Source of the DNA: Bacteroidota bacterium
GTDB lineage: Bacteria; Bacteroidota; Bacteroidia; Flavobacteriales_D; Crocinitomicaceae
Direction: 5' to 3'
DNA length: 64,000 bases
Assembly: GCA_030148165.1 (NCBI GenBank)
Contig: JASBTZ010000003.1
Span: 1,364,001-1,428,000, forward strand
How positions within the stretch are numbered: position 1 is the stretch's first letter; every line of letters begins with the position of its first letter. Below the pieces are notes generated by a model. That model saw only the letters and a program-made list of their open reading frames with translations, did no database searches and was not told where the DNA came from. The position numbers and the translations under genes are program-made. This document shows positions 14,074 to 51,936 of the stretch, one piece after another.

Positions 14074-14116
14074 CAAGATATTCGAGAAATTTGTATTATA
14101 ATATGATTCATATCAA
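14074..14116 (-). promoter_or_regulatory. FNR-like palindrome and near-consensus -7 element for the 210-aa regulator
   Basis: Palindrome ATGATTCATATCAA at 14103-14116 (core TGAT-N4-ATCA). On the minus strand a -7-like element TATCTTG ends at 14074, 35.5 bp from the palindrome centre. That is one base short of the spacing seen at seven other promoters here. A further inverted repeat AATCAA-AG-TTGATT spans about 14059-14072. Confidence 0.6.
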
Positions 14117-14136
14117 TGTTTAACATGACAGAATCG

Positions 14137-14853
14137 TTAGCCTCCAAGGGTACTTGCGATTTGTATTAGTCGCTTTTTATCTTTGACCATTATCTTTTTA
14201 CCCTCCATCTCGATACAACCATCTTCCTTCAAACTCGAAAGAGATCTAATTGCGGTTTCGATAGTTGTACCAACGATATCAGCATATTCGGATCGTGTTA
14301 GATTTACATCAATATTTCCGTCGTCGTCTACACCGAAACAATCATCAAGCAATAGTATTGCCTCTGCCATACGCTCCAATACCGTTTTCTCCGAAATGTT
14401 GATTAACTTTTGTTCAGCATGTTTCAAGTCTTCTGAAAGGAGCTCCATGAGATTAAAGGATAATTTTGGATTCTCAATTATTACATCTCTGAACTTATTT
14501 TTATCCATTAGACAAACATAACTGTCTTCCACGGCTACAGCAGTTGCTTTGTACGCTTCATTACCTAACAATGATCGATAACCTAACAGGTCACCTGTCT
14601 TTGCAAACCGCACTATATGTTCTTTACCATTCTCCCCTAATTTGGTCAACTTCACTTTCCCTTTGTAAATACAATACAGGCCATTTACATGATTGTCTTC
14701 GTAAAAAATAATTTGCCCTTTACGGTAAAAATTACCGCCTTTCCCTTCGCTAATGGCTTCCTTGTAATTCATTGGAAGAGAACACAGTATGCCATCCCTG
14801 TTGTCACATTGATCGCATCTCGGAACATTTAGTTTGATTCGTTTCTTTGCCAT
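14137..14853 (-). CDS. fnr: FNR-type oxygen-responsive regulator with four Fe-S cysteines
   Basis: 238 residues from the ATG at 14853; an ATG at 14880 would add nine. The N-terminus has CDQCDNRDGILC (C-x2-C-x7-C), and a fourth Cys lies in EDSYVCLMDK, aligning with E. coli FNR Cys122 in ETSMVCEIP. All four ligands for an oxygen-labile [4Fe-4S] cluster therefore appear present. The recognition helix TRSEYADIVGTTIETAIR keeps the FNR Glu and Arg but replaces Ser212 by Ile. This fits the palindromes here, which read ATGAT instead of TTGAT. It is divergent from moeA across a perfect palindrome. It is the best candidate for the master regulator of the anaerobic island. Confidence 0.9.
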   Translation of the reverse strand: MAKKRIKLNVPRCDQCDNRDGILCSLPMNYKEAISEGKGGNFYRKGQIIFYEDNHVNGLYCIYKGKVKLTKLGENGKEHIVRFAKTGDLLGYRSLLGNEAYKATAVAVEDSYVCLMDKNKFRDVIIENPKLSFNLMELLSEDLKHAEQKLINISEKTVLERMAEAILLLDDCFGVDDDGNIDVNLTRSEYADIVGTTIETAIRSLSSLKEDGCIEMEGKKIMVKDKKRLIQIASTLGG

Positions 14854-14919
14854 AATCTTCAAATACTCAAATTTAACCATTCATCGAGCCAGATACACTT
14901 ACAATTGTTTGTCTTTTTT

Positions 14920-14963
14920 ATGATATATATCATATTAATTACTGACCGAGTTGAATAATTTTG
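14920..14963 (+). promoter_or_regulatory. FNR-like operator and promoter of the moeA operon
   Basis: Perfect palindrome ATGATATATATCAT at 14920-14933 and exact Bacteroidota -7 element TAATTTTG at 14956-14963. The centre-to-G distance is 36.5 bp, which places the site near -41.5. The palindrome also faces the divergent fnr gene, but only a weak -7 match (TGTATCTG, G at 14890) exists on that side. Confidence 0.8.
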
Positions 14964-14982
14964 ATGTTGAACAAACGAGAAT

Positions 14983-16158
14983 ATGATATCTCCAGAAAAT
15001 GCAATTCATAAAATTGTAGAATTCACACCAACAATGCCGCGTGAAGAAATGGCCTTACAGCGCGCTTTAGGACGGATATTAGCAGAGGATGTTATGTCTC
15101 AAATAGACATGCCTCCATTTGACCAATCTGCTATGGATGGTTATGCTGTACAAAATATTTCTTCAAATGCGTTTGAAATTATTGGAGAGCATAAGGCCGG
15201 AGATAAACCGACTTATGAACTGCGTGAGAATGAGGCTATTCGCATTTTTACCGGAGCTATAGTTCCCGATTCTGCATCTGCAGTTGTTAAGCAAGAAGAT
15301 GTTAAACGATCGAACCATGTTATTAATGTCAATGGTAAACCAATCGTTTCGGGAGCAAATATCAGATTAAAAGGAGAGCAGATTAAAAAGGGAAACATTG
15401 CAGCGAAGGAAGGTACCCCATTACAAGCGGGGGCGGTTGGCTACCTTAGTACCTTAGGGGTGACCGAGGTCGTGGTTTCCAAACAACCCACTGTAACCAT
15501 AATCACAACGGGGAACGAACTTGTTGCTTCTGGAAATGAGCTGAAACCGGGTCAGATTTATGAATCCAATTCCATTATGTTATCTGCGGCACTTTTTCGC
15601 GAAGGATTGAAGCCAAACATCGTAATAATTGAAGACGACAGGAATATCACACGACAAGTTTTGAAGGATGCTATAGAAGAATCCGACGCTGTCTTAATCA
15701 CAGGAGGTATATCCGTTGGAGATTATGATTTCGTATATGATGCTCTGCAAGCCCTGCAAGTGGAAGATATTTTCTACAAGGTTGCTCAAAAACCGGGGAA
15801 ACCACTTTATGTTGGTAAAAGAAATCAAACGATGATTTTTGGATTACCCGGGAACCCCGCAGCAGCATTGACATGCTACTATCTATATGTGACACCATCA
15901 TTAAGGAAAATGCAGCGTCATCAATCTCCTGAATTAGTCAGAGCCTATGCTAAAATTGACGAAGACTATCATAAGCGAGGGGGATTGAGGAATCATCTGA
16001 AAGGGCAACTTAAGGGTGAATTTGTAACAATTTTGCCCAAACAGAGTTCAGCAATGCTTGGAGATTTTACGGATGCAAATTGTATTGCCATCCTTCCAGG
16101 TGAGGATAAATTGTGGAAAAGAAATGAATTGGTAGAGGTTATCCTGCTTCCATATTAG
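14983..16158 (+). CDS. moeA: Molybdopterin molybdotransferase MoeA
   Basis: 391 residues, normal length. It has the family signature MPPFDQSAMDGYAV, the GDKP linker region, TTGNELVASGNELKPGQIYESN, the catalytic motif ITGGISVGDYDFV and GLPGNPAAAL near the C-terminus. It inserts molybdate into adenylylated molybdopterin in the cytoplasm. It heads a five-gene molybdopterin operon (moeA, moaD, moeB-like, moaE, moaCB) under an FNR-like promoter. The cofactor is needed by the nitrate reductase at 47588-51229. The gene for the guanylylation step (mobA) is not in the window. Confidence 0.96.
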   Translation: MISPENAIHKIVEFTPTMPREEMALQRALGRILAEDVMSQIDMPPFDQSAMDGYAVQNISSNAFEIIGEHKAGDKPTYELRENEAIRIFTGAIVPDSASAVVKQEDVKRSNHVINVNGKPIVSGANIRLKGEQIKKGNIAAKEGTPLQAGAVGYLSTLGVTEVVVSKQPTVTIITTGNELVASGNELKPGQIYESNSIMLSAALFREGLKPNIVIIEDDRNITRQVLKDAIEESDAVLITGGISVGDYDFVYDALQALQVEDIFYKVAQKPGKPLYVGKRNQTMIFGLPGNPAAALTCYYLYVTPSLRKMQRHQSPELVRAYAKIDEDYHKRGGLRNHLKGQLKGEFVTILPKQSSAMLGDFTDANCIAILPGEDKLWKRNELVEVILLPY

Positions 16159-16181
16159 TTGAGAAATCTAAAACAAAAATT

Positions 16182-16412
16182 ATGCAGGTTAAGTTTGTCT
16201 ATTTTGGAATGATCGCAGAGAAGCTGGGTGCTACTGAAGAAATTCTGGAATTATCAGAAGACACTCAAAATGTACGGAATTATATCCTCAACAAATATCC
16301 CGAATTGAATACGATGTCATTTTCTATTGCAATAGATCAAGAACTACAGGATGAAATTGGTGAAGGTGAAGTATCTGAAATAGCATTACTCCCTCCATTC
16401 GCAGGCGGCTAA
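16182..16412 (+). CDS. moaD: Molybdopterin synthase small subunit MoaD
   Basis: 76 residues with a ubiquitin-like fold pattern and the essential C-terminal Gly-Gly in PPFAGG, which is adenylated and thiocarboxylated to carry sulfur. Low similarity elsewhere is normal for MoaD. It lies 23 nt after moeA and 2 nt before the activating enzyme gene, so the operon order matches function. Confidence 0.92.
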   Translation: MQVKFVYFGMIAEKLGATEEILELSEDTQNVRNYILNKYPELNTMSFSIAIDQELQDEIGEGEVSEIALLPPFAGG

Positions 16413-16414
16413 TT

Positions 16415-17515
16415 ATGACTGTGCAAGAAGAAAAATATTACAGTAGACAAATTTTACTTCCTGAAGTGGGAAGCAAAGGTCAGGCATTATTGCGAAATGC
16501 TCGTGTACTTGTAATCGGAGCGGGTGGTTTGGGATGTCCCGTACTGGAGTTTTTAGCGCGCGCAGGTGTTGGTTCATTGGGAATTGTGGACGGGGATGAA
16601 ATAGATGTTTCAAATCTGCATCGTCAATCTCTTTATACGTTTCAGGAAGTTGGGGATCGAAAAGCAAAGGTTGCCAAACAGGTCCTGCAAAAGATAAATC
16701 CATACATCAGCATACAAAGCTACCCGGAGATGCTGACGAAGAATAATGCACTTGACATCATTGATGCATATGACATCATCGTTGATGCAACGGATAACTA
16801 TCCAACCAGATATCTGGTGAATGATGCTTGTGTAATACTCAACAAGCCATTTGTTTACGGCGCAATCTATCGTTTCGAAGGACAGGTAAGCGTTTTTAAT
16901 TACAACGGAAGTGCAACGTATCGTTGTTTGTTTCCAAATTATCCTGAAGCAGAATCTCAAACAAATTGTGCTACGGCAGGAGTAATTGGCATTTTACCGG
17001 GAATCATCGGTTTAATGCAAGCGAACGAAGTCATTAAGATCATATTAAACAGTGAAGAGGTACTGAGCAATCGTCTTTTAAGCTACAATGCGAAATCAGG
17101 TAAAACCAGTACGATCAATTTACGTCGTGATGACGCATTTGATTATAGTATAGTTAAAAAAGAAGATGACGGTTTGAATCATACCTATTACAACCAATTG
17201 TGTGAATCCAAAAAAGAAATTGATACCGAAACATTACTTTCAATGATTGAAAAAGCTGTCTGCTTAATTGACGTCAGAATGCCGGATGAAACACCGGAAT
17301 TTGATCATTCATCTGTGGTTTCTATTCCGCTGCATGAAATTGATACGGTACAAGAACTTCCAGAAGCTGATTTGTTTGTCACTTTTTGTAAATCCGGGAT
17401 ACGAAGCAAATCCGCGCAGGCTATGTTGCAATCGCAATTCCCGACAAAAGAAATTTTAAACTTAAAAGGAGGTATTACCTCAGAACTTATAGAATTATGG
17501 AAACTAAACCCATAA
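16415..17515 (+). CDS. moeB: MoaD-activating enzyme (MoeB/ThiF family) fused to a rhodanese domain
   Basis: 366 residues. The N-terminal 240 residues are an E1-like adenylyltransferase: GAGGLGCPVLEFLARAG nucleotide loop, DGDEIDVSNLHRQ, and catalytic-type Cys in QTNCATAGVIG. The C-terminal 100 residues are a rhodanese domain with active Cys in FCKSGIRSKSA, so sulfur activation and transfer to MoaD may be in one chain, as in eukaryotic MOCS3. The structural zinc site looks lost: the first CxxC is reduced to TYRC and no second CxxC is present. The 3' end overlaps moaE by 19 nt. Confidence 0.9.
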   Translation: MTVQEEKYYSRQILLPEVGSKGQALLRNARVLVIGAGGLGCPVLEFLARAGVGSLGIVDGDEIDVSNLHRQSLYTFQEVGDRKAKVAKQVLQKINPYISIQSYPEMLTKNNALDIIDAYDIIVDATDNYPTRYLVNDACVILNKPFVYGAIYRFEGQVSVFNYNGSATYRCLFPNYPEAESQTNCATAGVIGILPGIIGLMQANEVIKIILNSEEVLSNRLLSYNAKSGKTSTINLRRDDAFDYSIVKKEDDGLNHTYYNQLCESKKEIDTETLLSMIEKAVCLIDVRMPDETPEFDHSSVVSIPLHEIDTVQELPEADLFVTFCKSGIRSKSAQAMLQSQFPTKEILNLKGGITSELIELWKLNP

Positions 17516-17940
17516 AAAATTGTTTTAGAGATGGAGCTATCTCCAGCAGCTTTATAGGTGACTCTATTGGCAAACATCAAACAAAAACCTCAATCGGAGC
17601 ACACCAAATCTTTTTAGGTCAGGTACGAGCCGATGAAATTGATGGTCAAATCGTGACCGGCATCGAATATTCGGCACATGAAGAAATGGCAAATAAAGTG
17701 TTTCAAAGGATTCGTGAAAAAGCTTTTGAACAATTTGACTTGACTTGCATGCATATATATCATAGCCTAGGTTTAGTGCAAACCGGCGAGATCTGTTTAT
17801 TTGTATTTGTATCGTCAAAACATCGTAAAGAAGCAATGCGTGCTGTCGAGTTCGTAGTTGAAGAGATCAAATTTAAAGCACCGGTATTTGGAAAAGAGAT
17901 ACTGAAAAATTCTGAACACGTTTGGAAAGTTAATAAGTAG
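17497..17940 (+). CDS. moaE: Molybdopterin synthase large subunit MoaE
   Basis: 147 residues with the family core GAHQIFLGQVRA, IYHSLGLVQTGEICLFV and VSSKHRKEAMRA. It ends KAPVFGKEIL...HVWKVN, the form of the catalytic-Lys region I associate with Bacteroidota. It assembles with MoaD to convert cyclic pyranopterin monophosphate to molybdopterin. It begins inside the 3' end of the moeB-like gene and is followed 1 nt later by moaCB. Confidence 0.94.
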   Translation: METKPIKNCFRDGAISSSFIGDSIGKHQTKTSIGAHQIFLGQVRADEIDGQIVTGIEYSAHEEMANKVFQRIREKAFEQFDLTCMHIYHSLGLVQTGEICLFVFVSSKHRKEAMRAVEFVVEEIKFKAPVFGKEILKNSEHVWKVNK

Positions 17941-17941
17941 G

Positions 17942-18853
17942 ATGGTAGAAATTACACATAAGAATACTACACTGCGCACCGCGGTTGCAGAAGGCATTGT
18001 AAAAGTTAGCAGACAGGAAACAATCGATTCAATCCTTAACAAATCTGTTCCCAAAGGCGATGTCTTCGAAATGGCAAAAACAGCCGGACTATTTGCAGTA
18101 AAGAAAACTTCAGACATGATACCTGATTGTCATCCCTTACCGGTTGAATATACCCATGTGGATTATGAAATAGAAGGCTTATCCGTTAGAATTAAAATGG
18201 AAGTAAAGGCAATCTACCGAACTGGAGTTGAAGTAGAAGCCATGCATGGAGTAAGTGTTGTAGCTTTGACTATGTACGACATGCTCAAACCTATCGATAA
18301 AGGTGTTGAAATCAACAACATTCGATTGGTTTCAAAAAAAGGAGGGAAATCGGACTGGAAAAAATATGCTGATCAAGGACTTAATGCGGCAGTGATCGTT
18401 TGTTCAGATACCATTTCAGCCGGGTCAAAGGAGGATCGATCAGGCAAAATCATTAAAGAGAAATTAGAAGGCTTTGGTGTAAATGTAGCCGACTACACAG
18501 TGATTCCGGATGAAGTTGAGGACATTCAAAAGGTTCTTAATTCACACGTGGCGAAAGAAACAAATCTAATTATTTATACAGGTGGGACAGGATTATCAGT
18601 TAGGGATGTCACACCCGAAGCACTGGAAGACTTACTCGACCGCCGTATTCCTGGAGTTGAGGAAGCTATCCGTAGTTATGGACAGGAGCGCACACCTCTC
18701 GCTATGCTTTCAAGAAGTGTCGCTGGTGTTAAAGGAAAATCGTTGGTTTTAGCGCTACCCGGTTCTTCCAAAGGTGTGGAAGAATCAATGGATGCTGTTT
18801 TTCCGTCTTTACTACATCTGTTTAAAATATTCAGGGGGGCTCGTCACGATTAA
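17942..18853 (+). CDS. moaCB: Bifunctional MoaC-MoaB/MogA molybdopterin protein
   Basis: 303 residues with two domains. Residues 1-150 are MoaC (KTSDMIPDCHPLPVEY, GVEVEAMHGVSVVALTMYDM), the partner of MoaA in making cyclic pyranopterin monophosphate. Residues 150-303 are MogA/MoaB-like (VIVCSDTISAGSKEDRSG, IYTGGTGLSVRDVTPEA, LALPGSSKGVEES), the molybdopterin adenylyltransferase. Natural MoaC-MoaB fusions exist in Bacteroidota. It closes the core operon; moaA is separate at 30723. Confidence 0.94.
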   Translation: MVEITHKNTTLRTAVAEGIVKVSRQETIDSILNKSVPKGDVFEMAKTAGLFAVKKTSDMIPDCHPLPVEYTHVDYEIEGLSVRIKMEVKAIYRTGVEVEAMHGVSVVALTMYDMLKPIDKGVEINNIRLVSKKGGKSDWKKYADQGLNAAVIVCSDTISAGSKEDRSGKIIKEKLEGFGVNVADYTVIPDEVEDIQKVLNSHVAKETNLIIYTGGTGLSVRDVTPEALEDLLDRRIPGVEEAIRSYGQERTPLAMLSRSVAGVKGKSLVLALPGSSKGVEESMDAVFPSLLHLFKIFRGARHD

Positions 18854-18901
18854 GTTTATAGGTGGAATTGATGCAACAATTGTTAGCTTGCAAAAGAAGA
18901 A

Positions 18902-19312
18902 ATGAGCGTTTATAATTATAATAGTAATCATAAGGTAATTACCGCTATGGTGTTAATTGCTGGCATTTCTATGTTTCATTTCTTACGAAAGGAAGAAAGC
19001 GAAAACGACAAAACGTATGAAAACGGACAAATCAAATATAGTGGCAGTAAACAAGATGAACTTAACCACGGTGTTTGGACATGGTATTTTCCTGATGGGT
19101 CCAAAATGATCGAAGGTCGTTTTATTAAAGGCAAACGAGAAGGTCTTTGGAAGAACTATTACCCCAACGGTCAAATTCAAATGATTTCAAGTTATCATGA
19201 AAATCATTTACAAGGTACCTTAACAACGTACGACTCTCTTGGGGTTGTACTGAAATCATATGAATATCGAATGGATACGATATACAAAGAGCTTACAACT
19301 GAATCACTGTAA
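18902..19312 (+). CDS. MORN-repeat protein, membrane anchored
   Basis: 136 residues. A hydrophobic N-terminal segment (about 12-27) is followed by three MORN_2-type repeats with the pattern YENGQIKYSGS, YFPDGSKMIEGRF and YYPNGQIQMISSY. These are often surface or periplasmic proteins in Bacteroidota, with toxin/antitoxin-like or structural roles. The function is unknown. It lies 48 nt after the molybdopterin operon and may be co-transcribed. Its stop codon is inside the terminator hairpin at 19286-19319. Confidence 0.75.
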   Translation: MSVYNYNSNHKVITAMVLIAGISMFHFLRKEESENDKTYENGQIKYSGSKQDELNHGVWTWYFPDGSKMIEGRFIKGKREGLWKNYYPNGQIQMISSYHENHLQGTLTTYDSLGVVLKSYEYRMDTIYKELTTESL

Positions 19313-19319
19313 GCTCTTT
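19286..19319. terminator. Terminator between convergent genes, overlapping a stop codon
   Basis: A 12-bp perfect stem AAAGAGCTTACA / TGTAAGCTCTTT with a 10-nt loop. It includes the stop codon of the MORN gene and is flanked by A/T runs. It probably ends transcription from the moeA side and perhaps also from the convergent gene at 19348. Confidence 0.75.
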
Positions 19320-19347
19320 ATTATTAACCATCAACCTAATTTCTTTG

Positions 19348-19806
19348 CTAAAGTGGCAGTTCAAAACTAGTTTTCCATTTCTCTTTAGTAAACGTATTCA
19401 CGCATGTAACCCACATGAAATTGTGATCACCTTCTTTCTTCATCCATCTATCGGTAATATGGCCTGCATCACCTTTCTCATTCTTTAGTTGATCACCAAT
19501 ACGGGGTAAAAAAGGATATAAAATAGTGAGTCTTTCTTCTTGAGTTTTCACTAAAGTGGTAGCTGTTTCGAATATAATTTCTTCAAATTTTTCAGCAACC
19601 ATTTCTTCGTTCATTTCATCCTTTGCTTCTTCTTTCAGATTAGCCGACCAGTTAAAGAAAAGATCTGTTGCTTTTCTTCTTAGTTCAGGTCTAATATAAG
19701 TTGGGAAAGGTGAACGAATATGTTCACGATCGTTGAACCAGAAATCAAATGTCTGTTCAACTAATTCACTTCTTTCTACTGTATCTTTTAATAGTTCGTT
19801 CATCAT
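19348..19806 (-). CDS. Conserved-looking protein in Ric operon, unknown function
   Basis: 152 residues, acidic and helix-rich, with no signal peptide or membrane segment. Visible features are a Trp/Phe-rich N-terminal stretch TFDFWFNDRE, YIRPELRRKATDLFFNW, and a C-terminal MWVTCVNTFTKEKW. I do not recognise the family. It is not an obvious globin or hemerythrin. It lies 19 nt downstream of ric in a three-gene unit (doxX-like, ric, this gene) whose promoter has the FNR-like geometry, so a role in anaerobic or nitrosative stress is a reasonable inference. Confidence 0.7.
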   Translation of the reverse strand: MMNELLKDTVERSELVEQTFDFWFNDREHIRSPFPTYIRPELRRKATDLFFNWSANLKEEAKDEMNEEMVAEKFEEIIFETATTLVKTQEERLTILYPFLPRIGDQLKNEKGDAGHITDRWMKKEGDHNFMWVTCVNTFTKEKWKTSFELPL

Positions 19807-19825
19807 ATCTGATAAGATTAGTTAA

Positions 19826-21024: not shown

Positions 21025-21038
21025 ATGATTAGCATCAC
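21025..21038. promoter_or_regulatory. Secondary FNR-like palindrome before the ric operon
   Basis: ATGATTAGCATCAC, core TGAT-N4-ATCA. No -7 element is found at the expected spacing on either strand. It may be an auxiliary or repressive site between the promoter below and the DoxX-like gene. Confidence 0.5.
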
Positions 21039-21079: not shown

Positions 21080-21123
21080 CAAAAATAATACTGAGTCTAG
21101 TCAATATATATGATATATATCAT
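21080..21123 (-). promoter_or_regulatory. FNR-like operator and promoter of the doxX-ric operon
   Basis: Perfect palindrome ATGATATATATCAT at 21110-21123, identical to the one before moeA. On the minus strand an exact -7 element TATTTTTG occupies 21087-21080, with its G 36.5 bp from the palindrome centre. Transcription would start near 21074, giving a leader of about 90 nt. Confidence 0.75.
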
Positions 21124-29133: not shown

Positions 29134-29712
29134 TTAAAGGCATTCAACCATCTTATTTTTAATATTCTCGTTTAATGTTATCAATTCATTTTGCATAGAA
29201 ACACCTCTGTCTTTATTGTACCAGAGTTGAACTGCCTTTTTAATTTCTGGTGAACTTCCACCAGATTTTTTAACATCTTTCACCAAAATCTGACAGGCTT
29301 TTGGTTGAGGACCCCAGACATACAAATCATTGGCTTCTTCATCCCGCACAATTAAAATTGGAATAGAGCGAGTTCCATTGGTCAGATATTGTTCAATGAG
29401 ATTACTCGAATCTCTAAGCTTTATGTCAAGGTGAATTTTCTCTGATAGCGAAGCTATTTTATTCAACATTGGCGCAACATTAGCAGCATCGGAACACCAC
29501 GGCTCAGTAATTAAAATCCAATTCTGGGTGTCTTGAATACCCTGGAAGGAATCAATTGTTTCCTTCAGGAGTTCACCGGTTTTGTTCCAACGTTTAAGCC
29601 GCGACCAATTCAATTTAACATATTCCAAATATTCTTCACTGTCGTATGGAGGATCGTTAAACTTTGACGTTAAGATCTCATTAAACTTCTCCATGTAATC
29701 ATTCCATTTCAT
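29134..29712 (-). CDS. Thioredoxin-like protein with single active-site cysteine
   Basis: About 192 residues. I place the start at the ATG at 29712 (or 29694), because the predicted -7 element covers 29728-29735 and makes the upstream ATG at 29730 unlikely. The thioredoxin fold is shown by NWILITEPWCSDAANVAPML and a cis-Pro segment TRSIPILIVRD. The active site is C-S-D-A with no second Cys, so it is not a normal dithiol reductase. Similar single-Cys proteins are frequent and uncharacterised in Bacteroidota. It is first in a possible unit with tryptophanase and proline dehydrogenase. Confidence 0.8.
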   Translation of the reverse strand: MKWNDYMEKFNEILTSKFNDPPYDSEEYLEYVKLNWSRLKRWNKTGELLKETIDSFQGIQDTQNWILITEPWCSDAANVAPMLNKIASLSEKIHLDIKLRDSSNLIEQYLTNGTRSIPILIVRDEEANDLYVWGPQPKACQILVKDVKKSGGSSPEIKKAVQLWYNKDRGVSMQNELITLNENIKNKMVECL

Positions 29713-29727: not shown

Positions 29728-29771
29728 CAAATTTCAGAAATCATTGACTAATATTTTGTGATTTAAATCAT
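29728..29771 (-). promoter_or_regulatory. FNR-like operator and promoter of the thioredoxin-like/tnaA unit
   Basis: Palindrome GTGATTTAAATCAT at 29758-29771. On the minus strand the -7-like element GAAATTTG spans 29735-29728; its G is exactly 36.5 bp from the palindrome centre. The element has TTTG and the A of TAnnTTTG but not the first T. Confidence 0.65.
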
Positions 29772-29951: not shown

Positions 29952-29995
29952 GTGATATATATCATATATTTTATCTGTTTTTTTATTGTCATTTG
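29952..29995 (+). promoter_or_regulatory. FNR-like operator and promoter of the hemerythrin-moaA-crp operon
   Basis: Palindrome GTGATATATATCAT at 29952-29965. The element GTCATTTG ends at 29995, 36.5 bp from the palindrome centre. TTTG matches the -7 consensus but the TA does not. The remainder of the 239-bp gap (29713-29951) holds the opposing promoter and no gene. Confidence 0.7.
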
Positions 29996-30726: not shown

Positions 30727-31727
30727 TTCCTGACAATCAAATAATAGACGGTTTTAGTCGTGTTCACGATTATCTGAGAATTTCACTAACAGAAAGGTGT
30801 AATCTTCGCTGCACATATTGTATGCCGGAAGAAGGTATTCAATTGCGAGATCGCAAAGAATTTATGTCAGGAGAAGAATTAATCGTGATTGCTAAAAAAT
30901 TCGTCGAACTGGGAGTGAAAAAAATAAGACTCACGGGAGGAGAACCGTTAATTAAGAAGAATATTGATCAGATCATTCAAGGGTTGTCAAATCTTGGAGT
31001 CGAACTGGCGATTACAACGAATGCTGTCCTTCTTGACCGTTATATCGATTTGCTCTGGGACAATGGAGTTAGAAACGTAAATATCAGCTTAGACTCACTT
31101 AAAGCCGATCGATTTAATAGTATTTCCAGAAGAAACTACTTTGACAGGATTAAGAAAAACATTGGATTAGCAATTCAGCATGGGTTCAATATCAAGATAA
31201 ATGTCGTTCTCATGCGTGGTGTTAATGATGATGAAATAATTGATTTCATTGAGTGGTCCAGAATTGAACCAATCCAGGTCAGATTTATAGAATTCATGCC
31301 GTTTGATGAGAATAACTGGGATTGGAATTCTAAAGTTTCCCAAAAAGAAATCATGGATCAGGTGTACTCGAATTATGGCACTGAGAACATTATTCGATTA
31401 GAGGATGAGAAGAATAAAATCGCCAGAAATTATATGGTAACTGAATCCAGAGGTTCATTTGGAATTATTAGTTCAATTACAAACCCATTCTGTGATACTT
31501 GTAACCGAATTAGACTTACTGCAGATGGTAAAATAAAGAACTGTTTGTTTTCTCCCAATGAAACGGATTTATTAGCTGTAGTTCGCTCCGGTAAGATAGA
31601 GGATCTAAAACCTTTAATAATTGATTCCGTGAAGAAAAAGAAGAAATATCACGGGGGAATTGATAGTTTTGAAGAACTGAAAAGTGACGACATTGTGAAT
31701 CGAACAATGGTCTCAATAGGAGGTTGA
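30723..31727 (+). CDS. moaA: GTP 3',8-cyclase MoaA
   Basis: 334 residues. Radical SAM cluster motif CNLRCTYCMPEEG (CxxxCxxC), GGEPL SAM-binding strand, second Fe-S site NPFCDTCNRIRLTADGKIKNC, and C-terminal Gly-Gly in VSIGG, all required for the first step of molybdopterin synthesis with MoaC. It is separated by 12 kb from the other molybdopterin genes but shares the same type of promoter. It overlaps both neighbours by 4 nt. Confidence 0.96.
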   Translation: MIPDNQIIDGFSRVHDYLRISLTERCNLRCTYCMPEEGIQLRDRKEFMSGEELIVIAKKFVELGVKKIRLTGGEPLIKKNIDQIIQGLSNLGVELAITTNAVLLDRYIDLLWDNGVRNVNISLDSLKADRFNSISRRNYFDRIKKNIGLAIQHGFNIKINVVLMRGVNDDEIIDFIEWSRIEPIQVRFIEFMPFDENNWDWNSKVSQKEIMDQVYSNYGTENIIRLEDEKNKIARNYMVTESRGSFGIISSITNPFCDTCNRIRLTADGKIKNCLFSPNETDLLAVVRSGKIEDLKPLIIDSVKKKKKYHGGIDSFEELKSDDIVNRTMVSIGG

Positions 31728-32383
31728 TGAATCAAATACTTGAAAAATACTGTATCGAAGAATGGCATGAACTAATTGCTTATCACTGCGATGTGCTAAC
31801 ATTCGACCCTGGCGAAGTCATTTTCAATATTGGAGACAAAACAAAGGGGTTATTATTAATCGATAAGGGCAAAGTTAAAGTCCTTACATCCGGGACTTCT
31901 AATAAGGAACGAATTATCCGCTTGGCTGCAGACAATGATATTCTTGGACACAGGGGGTTTGGAGGTAACTGGACCTATTCCATTAAAGCCGTAGCTCTGA
32001 CTAAAACGATGGTGACTTTTCTTCCTCTTGGTTTGTTCAAAAAACTCATGAAAACAAATCCGGAGTTTGCTTATTACATGACGATGTTCTTTGCTGAAGA
32101 ATTAAGAGATTCTGAAAGGTTAGCCAAACAAATGCCGGTTAAGAATAAAGTAGCTTCCGTCATATTGCAATCTTACAAGGTCTTCGGTCTTAATAATGAG
32201 TCCGATAACAAACTCGCATTCACTCTATCCAGGAAAGACATTGCCAACAAAGCAGGAACTACTTATGAATCTGTGGTTCGGGTTTTAACAGACTTAAACA
32301 AGGAAGAAGTGATTGAAACTAAAGGCAAAGACATTTGTCTCAAGGACATCATTGCTCTGACAAAATTAGCTGACGGAGATTAA
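31724..32383 (+). CDS. CRP/FNR-family regulator, Dnr-like
   Basis: 219 residues, with a beta-roll sensor domain, long dimer helix and winged helix ending in RKDIANKAGTTYESVVRVL. The recognition helix keeps Glu and Arg at the CRP/FNR positions and lacks the FNR Ser, like the FNR homologue at 14137, so it can probably bind the same ATGAT-type palindromes. The Fe-S cysteine pattern is absent. Its position after hemerythrin and moaA and facing norB suggests an NO-responsive (Dnr/Nnr-type) regulator, perhaps with heme; this is inference. It converges on norB with a 4-nt overlap. Confidence 0.87.
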   Translation: MMNQILEKYCIEEWHELIAYHCDVLTFDPGEVIFNIGDKTKGLLLIDKGKVKVLTSGTSNKERIIRLAADNDILGHRGFGGNWTYSIKAVALTKTMVTFLPLGLFKKLMKTNPEFAYYMTMFFAEELRDSERLAKQMPVKNKVASVILQSYKVFGLNNESDNKLAFTLSRKDIANKAGTTYESVVRVLTDLNKEEVIETKGKDICLKDIIALTKLADGD

Positions 32384-34170: not shown

Positions 34171-34214
34171 CAAATCTACATATCACTACTAGCCTATCAT
34201 ATGATACATATCAT
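34171..34214 (-). promoter_or_regulatory. FNR-like operator and promoter of norCB
   Basis: Palindrome ATGATACATATCAT at 34201-34214 and, on the minus strand, exact -7 element TAGATTTG at 34178-34171, centre-to-G spacing 36.5 bp. The palindrome is extended by flanking ATC and ATATT. Confidence 0.8.
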
Positions 34215-34261: not shown

Positions 34262-34305
34262 ATGATTCATATCATATATCTGCTCTATGTGATAGCTTAT
34301 TTTTG
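34262..34305 (+). promoter_or_regulatory. FNR-like operator and promoter of nadA-nadB
   Basis: Palindrome ATGATTCATATCAT at 34262-34275 and exact -7 element TATTTTTG at 34298-34305, spacing 36.5 bp. The two palindromes in this 146-bp intergenic region each match one divergent operon. The first ATG of the long open frame (34262) lies within the palindrome, so it is not the translation start. Confidence 0.8.
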
Positions 34306-34312: not shown

Positions 34313-35245
34313 ATGGTGAAGAATGTAAAAGAAGAAATACGTCGACTAAAGGAGGAAAAAAATGCGGTCATTCTGAGTCATTATTATCAGGATGAGGAGA
34401 TTCAGGAAATTGCCGACTTTATCGGTGATTCGCTTGATTTATCCAGAATTGCAGCCAAAGTTGATCAGCGAATCATTGTTTTCTGTGGAGTTCATTTCAT
34501 GGCTGAAACGGCTAAATTGTTAAACCCAACTAAAAAGGTACTACTTCCTGACTTAAATGCTGGTTGTTCACTTGCAGATAATTGCTCTGCTTCCGATTTA
34601 TTGGCTTTCAAACTAAAAAATCCGAAACATAAGTTAGTGACATACATCAATTGCTCAGCCGAAGTAAAAGCGATCAGTGACCTTGTGTGTACAAGCTCAA
34701 ATGCCAAAAAAATGATCGATTCATTTCCGGTTGACCAACCCATTATCTTCGCCCCTGATAAAAATTTAGGATCATTTTTAAAAACTCAGGTTGATCATGA
34801 GCTTGAACTTTGGGATGGTGTCTGCGTTGTACATGAAGCATTTTCAATTCAGAAAATAATAGACATTCGGCTTAAATACCCGAACGCTTTTATCATAGCA
34901 CATCCTGAATCGGAATCCAATATTCTCAATCTTGCACACTTCATAGGATCGACAAGTCAAATGATCAACTTCGTAACGGAACATCCGGAAGATACATTCA
35001 TCGTTGCAACTGAAGCAGGTATTTTGGCTAAAATGAAAGAACTGGCTCCTAATGCGACCATTATCCCGGCTCCTGTGAATGAAGATAATACGTGCGCTTG
35101 TAGTGAATGTGCCTATATGAAGGTGAATACATTGGAAAAAGTACTCGACTGTTTGCGTAATGAATCTCCTGAAATCAGAATTGACGCTCACATCGCAGAT
35201 CGTGCTCGCAAACCCATTGAAAAAATGCTAATGCTATCACAATGA
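34313..35245 (+). CDS. nadA: Quinolinate synthase NadA
   Basis: 311 residues from the ATG at 34313, which begins MVKNVKEEIRRL and fits the family. It shows AVILSHYYQDEEIQEIADFIGDS, the [4Fe-4S] Cys candidates in LNAGCSLADNC and NTCACSECAYMKVNT, and a conserved HPE motif. It condenses iminoaspartate with dihydroxyacetone phosphate to quinolinate for NAD synthesis. The cluster is oxygen-sensitive. It overlaps nadB by 4 nt (ATGA). Confidence 0.95.
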   Translation: MVKNVKEEIRRLKEEKNAVILSHYYQDEEIQEIADFIGDSLDLSRIAAKVDQRIIVFCGVHFMAETAKLLNPTKKVLLPDLNAGCSLADNCSASDLLAFKLKNPKHKLVTYINCSAEVKAISDLVCTSSNAKKMIDSFPVDQPIIFAPDKNLGSFLKTQVDHELELWDGVCVVHEAFSIQKIIDIRLKYPNAFIIAHPESESNILNLAHFIGSTSQMINFVTEHPEDTFIVATEAGILAKMKELAPNATIIPAPVNEDNTCACSECAYMKVNTLEKVLDCLRNESPEIRIDAHIADRARKPIEKMLMLSQ

Positions 35246-39173: not shown

Positions 39174-39216
39174 CAAAATTAGAGCATTTGATAGATTGAA
39201 TATTGATCTATATCAT
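39174..39216 (-). promoter_or_regulatory. FNR-like operator and promoter of ctaA-queD
   Basis: Palindrome TTGATCTATATCAT at 39203-39216. An exact -7 element TAATTTTG lies on the minus strand at 39181-39174 with 35.5-bp spacing. On the plus strand towards the ribonucleotide reductase no -7 element is found at the expected distance. Confidence 0.6.
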
Positions 39217-43744: not shown

Positions 43745-43882
43745 ACTTTGTATCCGATTATTGTAAGGCAATTTACCACATGTTCAAGATAAATTCTATG
43801 ATGGGAATCATATCGGATATTGATAATAGCTCAAGCTGATCGTATCCAGCTCCATCTGAAAACCAAAAAGCATGAAAAAGAA

Positions 43883-43932: not shown

Positions 43933-45336
43933 CTAATGATTTCTAGGCTTTTTCCCGAAAGTATGCCTAGTGGAGGATCTAATTGCTTTTCTGTTCCAAT
44001 TCCAAATTACTATTTGATATTTTCTCCAGAGATAATCTATCGGAGCTACTAAAAAGTGCATAAATCTTGTGAAAGGAATTATTGCAATTATCGCGAAAGC
44101 AGAAATTACGTGTAATTGAATCCACCAAGGCATTTCCGCAACAGCTGAAATATCAGGATCAAATGAGAATACTGATCTCAAGTAAGGAGTTAAGACACTC
44201 GCAAACCATGATGAACCCCATCTAACGTAGTAAGCAACACCAAGTCCAGAGATAATTTGTGTCAACAATATTGTGTACACCACCATATCCATTTTATTAG
44301 TCACTACTAACAGGGTTTTGCTTCTCAATCTTCTTACTATTAATTGAATCAGACCCCATAAAGCAGCTAATGCGAAGGCAAAAGAAGCCAGCTCAAGGAT
44401 CAGTCTTCTAACCGGTTCTCCGTTCCATGCAATCACCGCTGATGGAACCAGGAAGGCAATTAAGTGACCGAAAAACAAGACTAATAATCCCCAGTGGAAT
44501 GGTTGTGAACCTCTGAATAATTTCTTTCCTTCTAAAAATTGAGTGGAAAGAGAAGACACTTTAAAGCCTTTTTTCTTGTATCGATAGATACTACCGACCA
44601 AAAATATTCCGAATGCGAGATAAGGAAAGGCTAAGAACATCAGCTGATCGATCATTCCATAATTACCTTCTAAAAGTATTTTTAGAATAAATATTGCTGC
44701 TGCCGCAATGATAAGATACATAGAGAAAATACCAGGATAGTTTTTTACCTGATGAGGATTCGCGTGAACTCCAAGATTATTCATTTCTCTGAACACTCTG
44801 GTTTTAAAACGATAGGTAAAGAAAAGTGCAAAGGCAATTGCAATTAACGCGTACAATACATATTTGAAATTTATACTGTACCCTGCACCCGTGTCAACCG
44901 AGGCACCATCTGAACCACCTCCGCCGGAAGTTGTTGCAAGCTCTTCGCTAGATACTCCGTTCTCTTCGATGTACTTAATCAAATCTGCCATTTCTTCGTC
45001 AGATAGATCATAATTCGGCATCATTATTTTGTTGTACTCCTCGAAAATTGCAATCGCATCCTGATCACCCGAATTAATTAATTCCTGAGAATTTCTAATC
45101 CACTTCGCGACCCATTCCGGATCTCTTCTCTCCATCAGACCGTTCAATCCTGGACCCGTCATCGACTTGTCACTTAACATGTGACATGTCATACAATTCG
45201 TATTGAATATCTCCTCACCCGTCTTCGCCGATACATTGGTTCCAGACATAATGAAACTTAGGAATAACAGCATTGTAGTTAACTGATTCCAAATTCTGTG
45301 CTTGTTAAACATGAGATTCCTTTTCATCTTATTCAT
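43933..45336 (-). CDS. narI: Nitrate reductase gamma subunit NarI with fused cytochrome c domain
   Basis: About 467 residues from the ATG at 45336, chosen because it gives a good signal peptide (cleavage near TNVSA) and follows the narJ stop. Residues 25-110 are a class I cytochrome c with CMTCH and a Met ligand candidate in IMMPNYDLSDEE. A Gly/Ser linker follows, then a NarI domain with five to six hydrophobic segments. The heme b ligands are present as FHWGLLVLFFGH and LHVISAFAIIAII...TRFMH. Normal NarI is about 225 residues and has no heme c. The fusion suggests that electrons may also come from or go to periplasmic cytochrome c. Confidence 0.88.
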   Translation of the reverse strand: MNKMKRNLMFNKHRIWNQLTTMLLFLSFIMSGTNVSAKTGEEIFNTNCMTCHMLSDKSMTGPGLNGLMERRDPEWVAKWIRNSQELINSGDQDAIAIFEEYNKIMMPNYDLSDEEMADLIKYIEENGVSSEELATTSGGGGSDGASVDTGAGYSINFKYVLYALIAIAFALFFTYRFKTRVFREMNNLGVHANPHQVKNYPGIFSMYLIIAAAAIFILKILLEGNYGMIDQLMFLAFPYLAFGIFLVGSIYRYKKKGFKVSSLSTQFLEGKKLFRGSQPFHWGLLVLFFGHLIAFLVPSAVIAWNGEPVRRLILELASFAFALAALWGLIQLIVRRLRSKTLLVVTNKMDMVVYTILLTQIISGLGVAYYVRWGSSWFASVLTPYLRSVFSFDPDISAVAEMPWWIQLHVISAFAIIAIIPFTRFMHFLVAPIDYLWRKYQIVIWNWNRKAIRSSTRHTFGKKPRNH

Positions 45337-45350
45337 TCTTATATTAATAC

Positions 45351-46052
45351 CTATTGTCTTATTTCTTCTGGTTTGGGGATAGTAGTAGAGCACGAAGTAT
45401 CACAATTTCCACTCAGCACCGTGCCAACTGTCCCCCCAAGTGTTGGAACTATTTCCGGGTCATCGAATCGATTTTCATTATAGTCAGCATTCACAACTAC
45501 CTGTAAAGCTTCGATTGCATTTTGGTAGATGTTCTTGTTTTCGACATCTTCCATAATTACGACTTTCTGTTTTTTCCTTCGAACCTTATCTTTCAATGCC
45601 ATTCTAGACTCTTCAAATTCCTGCAACATCTTTTTTATTGCCGGTTTCATGATCCGTTCTCCGAATTCTACAAGAAATTCTTCATCCTGATTTTGGGCCA
45701 TCATTGTCAGAACATTTGGCAAATTGTCAGCTAGTTCTTCACCACAATCATTGTTCAGTTTTTCCTGTTCTTTTTTCATCTGAACTAAAAACTCACCGCG
45801 TTTATAGTCTTCCGCGAACAAGACATAGCCGATATCCAAATAACAAATTGCTTGAATATGAAAGGTTTTGCCAAATATTTCTTCGATCTCAAAATCACTG
45901 TGAGACTTGATATACTTAACAAATGGCTCAAGCTTTTCAGCTGCTTCCGGATATGCTGTCATCAAATAACTATGACATTCTTCCACACGCTGCTTATAAC
46001 CACTCATCGGGTATCGAAAAAGCTCAGCTATATGTTTATATTGATTTCTCAT
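45351..46052 (-). CDS. narJ: Nitrate reductase assembly chaperone NarJ
   Basis: 233 residues, helix-rich, TorD/NarJ type: LFRYPMSGYKQRVEEC, HIQAICYLDIGYVLFAEDYKRGEFLVQM, and ELADNLPNVLTMMA. It holds NarGH for molybdenum cofactor insertion in the cytoplasm and is not part of the final enzyme. It lies between narH (11-nt gap) and narI. It ends in a Cys-rich tail GNCDTSCST of unknown meaning. Confidence 0.9.
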   Translation of the reverse strand: MRNQYKHIAELFRYPMSGYKQRVEECHSYLMTAYPEAAEKLEPFVKYIKSHSDFEIEEIFGKTFHIQAICYLDIGYVLFAEDYKRGEFLVQMKKEQEKLNNDCGEELADNLPNVLTMMAQNQDEEFLVEFGERIMKPAIKKMLQEFEESRMALKDKVRRKKQKVVIMEDVENKNIYQNAIEALQVVVNADYNENRFDDPEIVPTLGGTVGTVLSGNCDTSCSTTIPKPEEIRQ

Positions 46053-47557: not shown

Positions 47558-47587
47558 AATTCTACTATTTGTGTCTGCTTAATTCTA

Positions 47588-50500
47588 TTAATATTCTACC
47601 TTTTCCATTTTTCTTACCAACACGTGGGTATCTCTATTGACACCAACCGGTCCCCAGTAATTAAAATGATAAGTAAATTGTCCATACCCGCCACACATTA
47701 AGTTTGGTTTCAAATGGACACGCGTGAATGAGTTGTTCATACCTCCCCTTCTTGGTTCTCCATTTTTACCTCTTCTTTCTTGTGATTTCGGAATATTATA
47801 CGTTCTCTCAACCGCGTGATAAACAATACATACTCCTTTCGGAATCCTTGCTGATACACAAGCTCTTGCCACGTACGTACCGTGGTCATTATAAACCTCA
47901 ACGTGATCATTATCATTTATCCCCAGTTCGGCAGCATCTTCTTCACTGATCCAGCATGGTTCATTACCACGTGACAGCGTCAACATACGAAGTGTGTCTC
48001 CATATGTAGAGTGAATGTGCCACTTACCGTGCGGAGTCAAGCAATTCAGCATTTTAGCTTTACCGTCGTTAACTGTTTTTCTCAAGTCACCATACGCTTC
48101 CGGTGTTGGAGATGGTTTGTATGTTGCCAAATGTTCTCCAAATGCGATGTATGCATCGTGATCCAGGTAGAAGTGCTGACGTCCGGTCAATGTTCTCCAA
48201 GGAACCAGCATGTCAACATTATACGTGTATGCCGCATAGGTTCTGCCGTCATGCATTAAACCTGACCAAAGTGGTGAAGAGTTATAACGTTTCGGCTGTG
48301 CCTGCAAATCTCTGTATTCCATTTCGATCTGCTTGTACTCAGTTCCGAGGTCAGCAATTTCTGCAACACCGATCTTCTTCGCCATTGTTTGGTATGCGCG
48401 TTCTGTCAATTTACCATTGGTCAGAGTAGACAACTTAAGTACCGCGTTGATAGCTTCCACATCATCCTTCAACGATGGGTACTCCGTACCGTCATCCCAT
48501 TTGGTAATGTGCTGTCTGTGTTCCAACATTTCTTCGTAAACATCTGCGCACTCATAGTGGTTACCGTGAGCACCTAATCCGTTTTCAGCTACCCCTTTAC
48601 CAAGTGATATGTATTTGTCATAGATCTTGGTATAATCTCTATCCTTGAATACAATTTTATGCATTGTCTTACCAGGGATTGCCTCACATTCGCCTTTACT
48701 CCAATCCAATAGTCTTGGTTGTGTAATTTCATCGGCTGAATCATGAGATAAAGGAACGTTTACTACATCCTTCATAACATCTGGTAAATATGTTTTAGCC
48801 ATTTCACTCATTTTCAAGGCTAATCCTTCGAATATCTGCCAGTCAGATTTTGACTCCCAAACCGGAGGAATAGCTTCAGATAGCGGGTGAATGAACGAGT
48901 GCATATCTGTTGAGTTGATATCTGCCTTTTCATACCATGAAGCGGTTGGCAACACGATATCAGAATAAAGAGCTGAAGTATCCATACGGAAGTTGATATC
49001 AATAACAAGGTCCATTTTACCTCGCGCACCTTCTTCTTTGAACGTGATATCTTTTACGATATCACCAGCTACTTCATCCGCGATTTTGTTTGTGTGCGTA
49101 CCCAGATAGTGATCCAGGAAGTACTCGTGTCCTTTTGCCGAAGTACCGATCGCATTCCCTTTCCAGATAAACCAGTTTCTAGGGAAATTGATTTCTTCAT
49201 CCGGCTCAACAATGGAGTGTTTCAATTCTCCTGACTTCAACTGAGAAACAATGTAATCTCTCATCGCATCATCTGTCGTATGACCTGCAGCCTGTGCTTC
49301 CTTAACAATATCAAAGTTGCTCTTGTTATACTGTGGGTAATAAGGCATCCATCCATTACGAACTGCTTTCACCGCCCAATCTGCTGAGTGCATGTTCGCC
49401 AGCTCATTATCCGGTGCAGAGTTATAGTATTTTTGGTTGCCATCATATCTCCATTGAGAAGAGTTTATGTAATGCCAGATCGGACCTTGTTGTAGTCGAG
49501 GTGCTGTACCCCAGTCTTTCGAACTCATGATTGTAGCCCATGAATCCATTGGAGCCAATTTCTCCTGACCAACATAGTGGTTCATACCACCACCGTTCTT
49601 ACCATTACATCCCGTTAACATCTGAGCCATGATCGCTGAACGATACATGAGGTTATTATGGAACCAGTGGTTGATTGCTGCTCCAACGATCACCATACAT
49701 TTACCTTCTGTTGTTTCCGCTGTGCTGGCCCACTCTCTTGCCAATTGAATAACTTCTTTTCTACCTATTCCGGTGAAAATTTCCTGCCATGCAGGAGTAT
49801 ATGCCTGGTCCTTATCATCGTATGAATCCGGATACTCACCTTCGAGACCACGACCCACACCATACTGTGACATAGTAAGGTCATAGATAGTTGCTACCGG
49901 AACTTTACCACCATCAACTGTATCTACATATCTTACAGGAACTCCACGCAGTGCTTTTTTATCCAGACCGAATTCAGTAAACTCAACCTGAAGAACTTTA
50001 TCACTTTTATCGATGAAAGTTAATTCCGGATCGTATGGCTTATCTGTTTCACCATCTTCAAACTTCATGTTCCATTTTCCTCCTTCACCATCCCAGCGAT
50101 GACCCATACTTCCTTTAGGCATTACCAGGTCACCAGAATCCGTGTCAAAGTTCAGGAATTTCCACTCTCCGTTCTTAACGTCTTTGTATTTTGAAATTCT
50201 ATTTGCCCGGATCATTCTTCCCGGAAGGAATTTGCCATCTTCTTCATGCAATTCAACCAGGAATGGACAATCAGTATATTTCTTCACATAGTCGATGAAG
50301 TAAGGAGTCTTTTTGTCCACATGATACTCTTTCAGGATCACGTGTGTTACAGCCTGCCAAAATGCTCCATCCGAACCGGCATGAACCGGAATCCATTGAT
50401 CAGCGTGTTTTGCCACCATGCTAAAGTCTGGTGACATAACCACTGTTTTTGTTCCGTTGTGTCTAGCTTCTGAGAAGAAGTGAATATCCGGTGTACGAGT

Positions 50501-51229
50501 CATACCTAGGTTCGCTCCCATGGAAACGATAAACTTAGATAAGTACCAATCTGCACTTTCACATACATCCGTTTGCTCACCCCAAATCTCAGGATATGCA
50601 TTCGGTAAGTCACAATACCAATCGTAGAAGCTTAGGTTAATACCCCCGCACAATTGAATGTATCTTGCTCCGGACGCATAGCTCAACATACTTTTTGCAG
50701 GAATCGGTGCGAAACCTGTAATTCTGTCTGAACCATACTTTTTAATTACATAAATATTTGCTGCAGTGATCAGTTCTGTGATTTCATCCCAGTGAACTCT
50801 TCTGAATCCACCTTTTCCTCTGGCCCACTGATAACGTTTACGTTTTTCAGGATCAGCCTGTAAATTTGCCCAAGCCTGGACAGGGTCACCACCACACTTT
50901 TTCTTTTCTTCGCGATACTGATCTAACAGAGCTCCCCTAATAATTGGATATTTAACACGAATGGGACTATATAAGTACCATGAATATGATATCCCTCGTT
51001 GACACCCTCTTGGTTCATAAGGAGGAACTTCTTTGTTAAACTGTGGGTAGTCCAGTTGTTGCATTTCCCACACAACGATACCATCCTTGACGTGAATTGC
51101 CCAGGAACAACCACCAGTACAGTTTACTCCGTGAGTACTTCTGACAACTTTATCGTACTGCCATCTGTTTCTGTAAAACTCTTCCCACTGTCGTGTTTTC
51201 GGGGAAATTATATCTTCTATCCAGCTCAT
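47588..51229 (-). CDS. narG: Respiratory nitrate reductase catalytic subunit NarG
   Basis: 1213 residues, close to E. coli NarG (1247) along its whole length. The N-terminus has [15 protein letters not shown] and EPRGCQRG for the FS0 cluster with its His ligand. The molybdenum Asp lies in [21 protein letters not shown]-type sequence. There is no twin-arginine signal peptide, so the active site is cytoplasmic. It reduces nitrate to nitrite with bis-MGD molybdenum cofactor. Second gene of a five-gene operon with a cytochrome c gene before it. Confidence 0.97.
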
Positions 51230-51272
51230 ATTTCCTTATATTAATTCGTTAGAATTTCTTTTTTAATGATAA

Positions 51273-51863
51273 TTAATGCTTGGCATCCCAAGCTTTACTT
51301 TGGCGGACAAAAATGTCCTTCTTAACCATATGTCTTTTACGTTTCCACCAGAGAATATTGATCAGCAAAATAATCGCGATTAAACCACCGATTCCTCCTG
51401 TAAGAAAGTAACTCGCCGCTGATTTTTGGCTCTCTTTATTTTCAGCAGTTTCCTTGAAAAAAGCCGTCAATGACGCACGTTCTTTTTCCGTTAATTCGTG
51501 ATTCTGATAAGATGTTGCCATAGCAGGGAATGGAGGTGCTGACAACCACCCTGTAATTCCTTCACCCATCCTTTCGTAAACATCCGATAGATCTTTTGCG
51601 AACAATCCTCCCGGGATCATGTTTTTATGATTTACATTATGACATGTTATACATGCTGGTCCTCCCTTAATAAAACTTTTAGACCCCTCAAAGTATTGTC
51701 GACCAAGTTTAGAACTGGCTCCGGTCATACTTGCGACAACTTCTTCAGAATCAGCCTCTGAACTTGTTGCAACATCAGCACTATCAACACTTTCCTGAGC
51801 ATAGCTTGGACTCAGAAAGGCTAGGCCAATGATACATGCTCCAATTTGTACTTTCAATTTCAT
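51273..51863 (-). CDS. Membrane-anchored monoheme cytochrome c heading the nar operon
   Basis: 196 residues from the ATG at 51863. The 14-residue upstream extension (to 51905) would overlap the predicted -7 element and is rejected. Signal peptide ends near SPSYAQ. The heme motif is CITCH in GGPACITCHNVNH, with Met candidates in FPAMATSYQNHELTEKE, and a C-terminal transmembrane helix (about 150-172) follows. It is like NarC-type cytochromes found with some nitrate reductases. Together with the heme c in NarI it gives this enzyme two periplasmic cytochrome c modules. Confidence 0.85.
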   Translation of the reverse strand: MKLKVQIGACIIGLAFLSPSYAQESVDSADVATSSEADSEEVVASMTGASSKLGRQYFEGSKSFIKGGPACITCHNVNHKNMIPGGLFAKDLSDVYERMGEGITGWLSAPPFPAMATSYQNHELTEKERASLTAFFKETAENKESQKSAASYFLTGGIGGLIAIILLINILWWKRKRHMVKKDIFVRQSKAWDAKH

Positions 51864-51892
51864 CTTAAATAATTTGACAATTAAATCTACCT

Positions 51893-51936
51893 CAAAGGTG
51901 TGCATGATAAAATGGTCAAACTATGATTTATATCAT
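51893..51936 (-). promoter_or_regulatory. FNR-like operator and promoter of the nar operon
   Basis: Palindrome ATGATTTATATCAT at 51923-51936. On the minus strand the -7-like element CACCTTTG spans 51900-51893 with its G exactly 36.5 bp from the centre. Predicted transcription start is near 51887, about 24 nt before the cytochrome c start. Confidence 0.75.

Follow-up and report, generated by a model that had tools for sequence, protein, structure and literature searches.

Palindromes beside the anaerobic genes of the window

The window analysed here is a stretch of 64,000 nucleotides from contig JASBTZ010000003.1 of a Bacteroidota bacterium (family Crocinitomicaceae), whose genome is G000 in a comparison set of 120 genomes of the order. 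It contains a nitrate reductase operon, genes for CRP/FNR-type regulators and, in the intergenic regions next to these and to other genes, palindromes with the core TGAT-N4-ATCA, which are the subject of this report. Ten of these palindromes had been listed in the initial annotation, where they were described as ATGAT-N4-ATCAT boxes marking the anaerobic operons of a complete, local FNR-type regulon. Gene calls in the window were made with our own codon-based gene caller (92% of the window coding, 8.1% of its bases intergenic). The genes adjoining the sites were labelled by Pfam and NCBIfam profiles; the labels hemN-like, norCB-like and nadB are our own reading of domains or translations. NarG and NrdJ scored above the NCBI cut-offs; NarK1 (289.5 of 311.7 bits) and the ric2-like protein (31.5 of 204.7 bits) scored below them.

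The exact core was found at each of the ten listed positions, and all ten palindromes were located between genes. The site at 14103-14116 is upstream of crpA (13428-14051, minus strand), a position that is also occupied in L005, a metagenome-assembled genome (MAG) and the one relative among 23 stretches. The next site (14920-14933, within the perfect 16-mer 14919-14934) separates crpB (minus strand) from moeA (plus strand), and a site in this intergenic region is also present in L005 and in the comparison genomes G118 and G019. Two sites, 21025-21038 and 21110-21123, are upstream of narK1 (21190, plus strand) and, on the other side, of doxX/ric1 (minus strand). The site at 29758-29771 precedes a thioredoxin-like gene (29134-29712, minus strand), and that at 29952-29965 precedes the ric2-like gene, moaA and crpC (30013, plus strand). 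Two perfect 16-mers follow, with cores at 34201-34214, upstream of cytochrome c and COX1-family genes (norCB-like, minus strand), and at 34262-34275, upstream of nadA-nadB (34313, plus strand). For the latter to be intergenic, nadA must start at 34313, the position picked by the gene caller, and not at the ATG within the palindrome. The core at 39203-39216 lies between ctaA (minus strand) and nrdJ (plus strand), and that at 51923-51936, a perfect 16-mer with the top matrix score of the window (see below), lies upstream of the cytochrome c-narGHJI operon (minus strand). An eleventh intergenic core, absent from the earlier list, was found at 43798-43811 upstream of mbnP-mauG (minus strand). It is also part of a perfect 16-mer, and its matrix score (19.5) is higher than those of six of the ten listed sites. 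The earlier list was not complete. In the nitrate reductase region, the gene at 43933-45393 encodes a fusion of a nitrate reductase gamma subunit with a cytochrome c domain.

The window holds 14 cores in total, versus a mean of 3.52 in dinucleotide shuffles (standard deviation 1.64; maximum of 8 in 100 shuffles), and 11 of the 14 are intergenic (binomial p 3e-10, given 8.1% of intergenic bases). The remaining three are within narK1 (22724), narG (47904) and a leucine-rich repeat gene adjoining pbpC (55185). None of the window's unrelated genes has an intergenic site beside it, as had been noted before. The longer form ATGAT-N4-ATCAT, which had been attributed to all ten listed palindromes, has both full ends in only five of them (14920, 21110, 34201, 34262 and 51923). 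When intergenic palindromes of the window, G118, G019, G010 and L005 were sorted by spacing, 25 were found at spacing 4 versus 9 summed over 12 other spacings (0-3 and 5-12).

The proposed extended operator and its distance from the -7 box

Over 26 intergenic sites from six genomes, the operator extended to TATGAT-N4-ATCATA. Among the 52 half-sites, position -1 was A in 42 and T in 4, position -2 was T in 39, and the second inner base was T in 35; the outermost A set these sites apart from other intergenic TGAT sequences (Fisher p 4e-12). This bears out the earlier observation that the outermost base differs from that of the E. coli box TTGAT-N4-ATCAA. The box of these sites is not of the E. 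coli type, and the TGAT core and the 4-base spacing are retained.

The bare core occurred 203 times in the genome (3.507 Mb, 18 contigs), that is, about 3.7 times per 64 kb. Since this is close to expectation, the bare core is not a marker on its own. The form ATGAT-N4-ATCAT was found 25 times in the genome, seven of them in the window, and was intergenic in six of these seven and in 8 of the 18 cases outside. The perfect 16-mer TATGAT-N4-ATCATA was found nine times in the 3.5 Mb, five times in the window and four times outside, and all nine copies were intergenic. The sites are not confined to the window, contrary to the description of the regulon as local. The sequence TGATATATATCA occurred at three places in the genome, all within the window. 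The E. coli-type sequence TTGAT-N4-ATCAA was also present 25 times in the genome; none of these 25 was in the window, and one of 15 examined was intergenic.

A matrix of 16 positions was built from 15 intergenic sites of other genomes only (L005, G118, G019, G010 and G115), which had been picked for their exact core. It was applied to the window and to a background of twenty 20-kb stretches of the same genome (400 kb, of which 37.7 kb are intergenic). At a score of at least 12, the window gave 11 intergenic and 1 coding sites versus 0 intergenic and 5 coding sites in the background. At a score of at least 14 the figures were 10 and 1 in the window versus 0 and 0. The background stretches were hand-picked at round coordinates, and none of the 18 ATGAT-N4-ATCAT sites outside the window falls within them; the zero comes partly from this choice. 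The genome-wide count of perfect 16-mers is free of it.

The position of the palindromes with respect to the promoter was analysed in 41 sequences that face genes within 260 bp, taken from 27 sites (L005 left out). These are not fully independent, because some are orthologous promoters or both sides of one site. The tetramer TTTG was found at +33 from the site centre in 15 of the 41, whereas at other offsets the mean was 0.32 and the maximum 4. The controls were 78 sequences from sites that are within a gene or face none; of these, three had TTTG at offset 33, with a mean of 0.64 elsewhere. For Flavobacterium psychrophilum, a sigma-A box TAnnTTTG at -12 to -5 is given in PMC9723704. Taken together with TTTG at +33, this would centre the operator at -41.5, which is where class II FNR sites are found. 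The register in 15 of the 41 sequences thus fits an operator at -41.5 of Bacteroidota TAnnTTTG promoters. The implied +1 base was A in 25 of the 41, and the base two positions further was A in 22.

Within the window, the -7 box was located at 14956-14963 on the moeA side of the 14920 site, at 34171-34178 for the norCB-like genes and at 34298-34305 for nadA-nadB. At 21110-21123 it was present towards doxX/ric1 and not towards narK1, and at 39203-39216 towards ctaA and not towards nrdJ. TTTG was in register at 29758-29771 and at 29952-29965 and was not in register at 43798-43811. At the cytochrome c gene that leads the narGHJI operon (51273-51905), TTTG is at offset 34 from the operator and falls past the first ATG; hence, a later ATG, ahead of a signal-peptide-like stretch, is probably the true start of this gene.

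Recurrence at narG and benzoyl-CoA reductase operons

The gene narG was present in three of 12 genomes tested (G118, G019 and G010), and in all three an intergenic site precedes the cytochrome c-narG operon. Further sites of G118 were found before a proline-dehydrogenase-like gene, a membrane-protein gene, a ric2-like gene and the counterpart of the window gene at 19348. In G010, the intergenic sites number three, one preceding the narG operon, one following moeA and one preceding a tnaA-like gene.

Outside the window of G000, two perfect 16-mers precede bcrC, in a benzoyl-CoA reductase operon, and a ferredoxin-led hydroxybenzoyl-CoA-reductase-like (hcr-like) operon. The bcr locus and the window share a 1.5-Mb contig, on which bcr comes about 825 kb earlier. 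The stretch at about 513.8-539.5 kb of this contig (G000:C14; L071, L172 and L065) reads as a Thauera-type benzoyl-CoA pathway with bcrCBAD, had, oah, dch and korAB-like genes, and the ferredoxin/XdhC/hydroxybenzoyl-CoA-reductase-like operon adjoins the bcr pathway genes. The products of bcrC, bcrB, bcrD, had and oah scored above the NCBI cut-offs; those of bcrA (425.9 of 578 bits) and dch (227.3 of 292.5) and the hydroxybenzoyl-CoA-reductase-like subunits scored below. Two more TGAT-N4-ATCA sequences are inside the bcrC gene, at L065:10754 and 10853 (C14:538753 and 538852).

At E<=1e-60, bcrB was found in three of the 120 genomes (G000, G019 and G118) and gave no match in the other 117. The two carriers besides G000 are also two of the three narG carriers among the 12 genomes tested. 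An operator precedes the bcr operon in all three genomes, and the 115 kb around bcr in G019 and G118 contain only three intergenic sites, namely those before bcrC (both genomes) and before the hcr-like operon (G118). The bcrC site of G118, located about 165 bases upstream, lacks a TTTG in register, and so does the bcrC site of G000. Benzoyl-CoA reductase is mentioned for Rhodocyclaceae and Peptococcaceae MAGs in a passage of PMC8099898, and a search of the open-access literature returned no report of Thauera-type anaerobic benzoyl-CoA degradation in Bacteroidota. A perfect 16-mer was also found at C18:54891-54906 (L066), before a gene for a secreted protein with a type IX secretion system tail (PF18962), which was read as thioredoxin-like. 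The presence of this sorting domain and the type of promoter both point to Bacteroidota as the phylum.

Candidate regulators and the proposed regulon

The main binder is proposed to be the FNR-type regulator encoded by crpB (14137-14853, minus strand). This protein has the cNMP-binding and Crp-type helix-turn-helix domains of FNR (Pfam cNMP_binding and HTH_Crp_2) and, at the sequence level, its four cysteines (C13, C16, C24 and C114), arranged as C-x2-C-x7-C plus a fourth. They are conserved in the relatives: the three N-terminal cysteines were present in all eight crpB proteins with a complete start (that of G000 included) and the fourth in nine of nine. The fourth aligns with the corresponding cysteine of E. 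coli FNR. In the recognition helix, in which Glu209, Ser212 and Arg213 are the main base-reading residues of FNR (PMC4505428), crpB keeps Glu and Arg and has Ile in place of Ser. The same Glu and Arg are kept, with Ile or Val at the position of E. coli Ser212, in crpB, crpC and a second FNR homologue described below, and we infer that the Ser212 change would cause the loss of the outer T. At E<=1e-30, crpB has matches in 52 of the 120 genomes, many of which are other FNR paralogs, and close relatives (44-53% identity) are present in G105, G075, G118, G019, G114 and G115. The G115 relative (L101/L012) contains an in-frame TGA, which may mean that its cysteine region is broken or wrongly assembled. 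The CRP/FNR-like product of crpA has a different recognition helix, and crpA is a probable target. The third regulator gene of the window, crpC (31727-32383, plus strand), encodes a CRP/FNR regulator without the cysteine set, is located near the ric2-like, moaA and norCB-like genes and is a possible second binder.

The system resembles that of E. coli FNR in the core TGAT-N4-ATCA, the predicted position at -41.5, the CRP/FNR domains (Pfam), the cysteine set and the nitrate-respiration targets. It differs in the outermost A instead of T, the extended T-A flank, Ile for Ser212, TAnnTTTG instead of a -10 box, and the score below the NCBI FNR cut-off. AadR of Rhodopseudomonas is an FNR-type regulator of anaerobic aromatic degradation. 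AcpR of Azoarcus, a relative of FNR, works from -41.5 at a promoter of the benzoyl-CoA pathway (PMC6678401), as the present regulator would. AcpR and AadR belong to another phylum and have another promoter type and another outer operator base. Like DNR and NnrR, the present system would control nitrogen-oxide reduction genes, and DNR uses an FNR-like box (PMC1274295); unlike them, crpB has the cysteine set, and crpC, without it, is the DNR-like candidate. HcpR2 of Bacteroides and Porphyromonas is a CRP/FNR regulator of nitrogen-oxide stress genes from the same phylum, but its box is GTAACnnnnGTTAC in most HcpR2 genomes and its regulon comprises only hcp genes in most Bacteroides (PMC1274295).

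Direct results of the computation are the palindromes with their spacing, the extended consensus, a fixed distance to the -7 box at part of the promoters, and the recurrence in other genera. An FNR-type regulon is well supported by these sequence comparisons. Of the initial annotation, the FNR-type operator at anaerobic operons is supported, and crpB has the FNR cysteine set; 'complete' and 'local' are not supported. The palindromes are most likely operators of crpB acting as an FNR-type activator in the class II position at -41.5. At low oxygen, a crpB dimer with a predicted oxygen-labile iron-sulphur (Fe-S) cluster held by the four cysteines would bind TATGAT-N4-ATCATA centred at -41.5 and, in class II activation, contact RNA polymerase bound at the TAnnTTTG -7 box of Bacteroidota. 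In the window, the genes switched on in this way would be those for nitrate reductase, nitrate transport, the nitric oxide (NO)-reductase-like proteins, Fe-S repair and the synthesis of molybdopterin, quinolinate and haem A; elsewhere in the genome they would be the benzoyl-CoA reductase and hydroxybenzoyl-CoA-reductase-like operons. A site also precedes crpB itself. The operator may in addition be bound by crpC, acting as a partner that responds to NO, by analogy with DNR on the FNR-like box in Pseudomonas. The cluster, oxygen sensing, binding and the direction of control (activation) are predictions.

With somewhat less assurance, it seems probable that a single FNR-type regulon (TATGAT-N4-ATCATA, -41.5 of TAnnTTTG, Ile/Val helices), present in three or more genera of one Bacteroidota family, couples nitrate respiration to Thauera-type benzoyl-CoA degradation. 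No description of an FNR operator for Bacteroidota was found in a search of the open-access literature, and a passage of PMC8510549 has MAGs of such bacteria queried with a MalR matrix from Bacteroides. The regulon would provide a base-exact, testable operator and promoter architecture (TAnnTTTG -7 box) for oxygen control in Bacteroidota, anaerobic genes of uncultured Bacteroidota would become predictable, and one switch would tie a nitrate-reducing lineage of the phylum to anaerobic aromatic-ring degradation. Because the outer base (T to A) and the helix (Ser to Ile) have changed as a pair, the CRP/FNR base-reading code would become directly testable.

Several observations, besides the choice of the background stretches, weigh against crpB as the activator at these sites. 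No TTTG at +33 was present in 26 of the 41 gene-facing sequences, among them those of bcrC (G000 and G118), mbnP and nrdJ. The crpB protein scored 91.8 of 228 bits, far below the cut-off of the NCBIfam FNR model; its best match among solved structures was 2gau, a Crp/Fnr-family protein, ahead of FNR chains, and its structure prediction, made from two sequences, had a mean predicted local distance difference test (pLDDT) score of only 36.8. Three genomes with crpB relatives (G105, G075 and G114; 45-53% identity) had no intergenic TGAT-N4-ATCA in the stretches fetched, and G114 carries TGAC-N4-GTCA instead. In the window, G118, G019, G010 and L005, coding palindromes were also raised at spacing 4, less so than intergenic ones (18, where other spacings had 6.8 on average and at most 10), and G118 has more coding (7) than intergenic (6) sites of spacing 4. 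Whole-genome counts at spacings 4 and 7 differed weakly in G000 (25/15), G118 (21/15), G019 (18/12) and G010 (12/10) and gave 8/11 in G105, 6/6 in G075, 7/14 in G114 and 12/11 in G115; G002, which has no crpB match, gave 21/16. The whole-genome palindrome count was rejected as proof, being too weak, with spacing-7 controls equal or commoner in many relatives. A reversed-pattern control was likewise not used as proof, since such words may simply be rarer.

An origin of the palindromes by chance, from the AT-richness of intergenic DNA, is hardly credible. The bare-core count near expectation (203 in 3.5 Mb) and the mild rise of coding palindromes at the same spacing agree with such an origin, but it was rejected on the intergenic spacing peak, the other-genome matrix and the -7 box register, and the recurrence across genera also speaks against it. 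It is unlikely, though much less so, that crpC is the main binder, as an NO- or nitrogen-oxide-responsive DNR-like regulator with the same operator, and crpB only its target or partner. The gene shares an island with the ric2-like, moaA and norCB-like genes, its product shares with crpB the helix pattern E-x-x-hydrophobic-R, the relatives closest to it (45% and 42%) come from G019 and G118, both of which have narG and bcr, and DNR itself uses an FNR-like box in Pseudomonas (PMC1274295). However, in G010, where a relative of crpB and the three intergenic sites are present, crpC matches at E<=1e-5 only this relative and a protein of 357 aa (about 30% identical). The retention of sites in G010, in which no crpC ortholog was found, favours crpB as the binder, possibly sharing the operator with crpC, and a site precedes crpB in four genomes.

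The second FNR homologue (C18:69099-69755) adjoins a hemN-like gene and has three N-terminal cysteines and a fourth, and its helix recurs in proteins at many other loci. It is nevertheless improbable that this protein is the binder and that crpB and crpC are specialised accessories. In G000 it is preceded by TGAC-N4-GTCA, and genomes with the second-FNR type (for example, G070 and G106) have no bcrB match. At 15 other loci of this type, a TGAY-N4-RTCA palindrome was found in five, with a TGAC half in four of them (L016, L023, L025 and L032), and none was found in ten, which suggests a second, related operator for the second FNR. The region between the hemN-like gene and the second FNR gene (L067:4964-5072) contains TGACATACGTCA.

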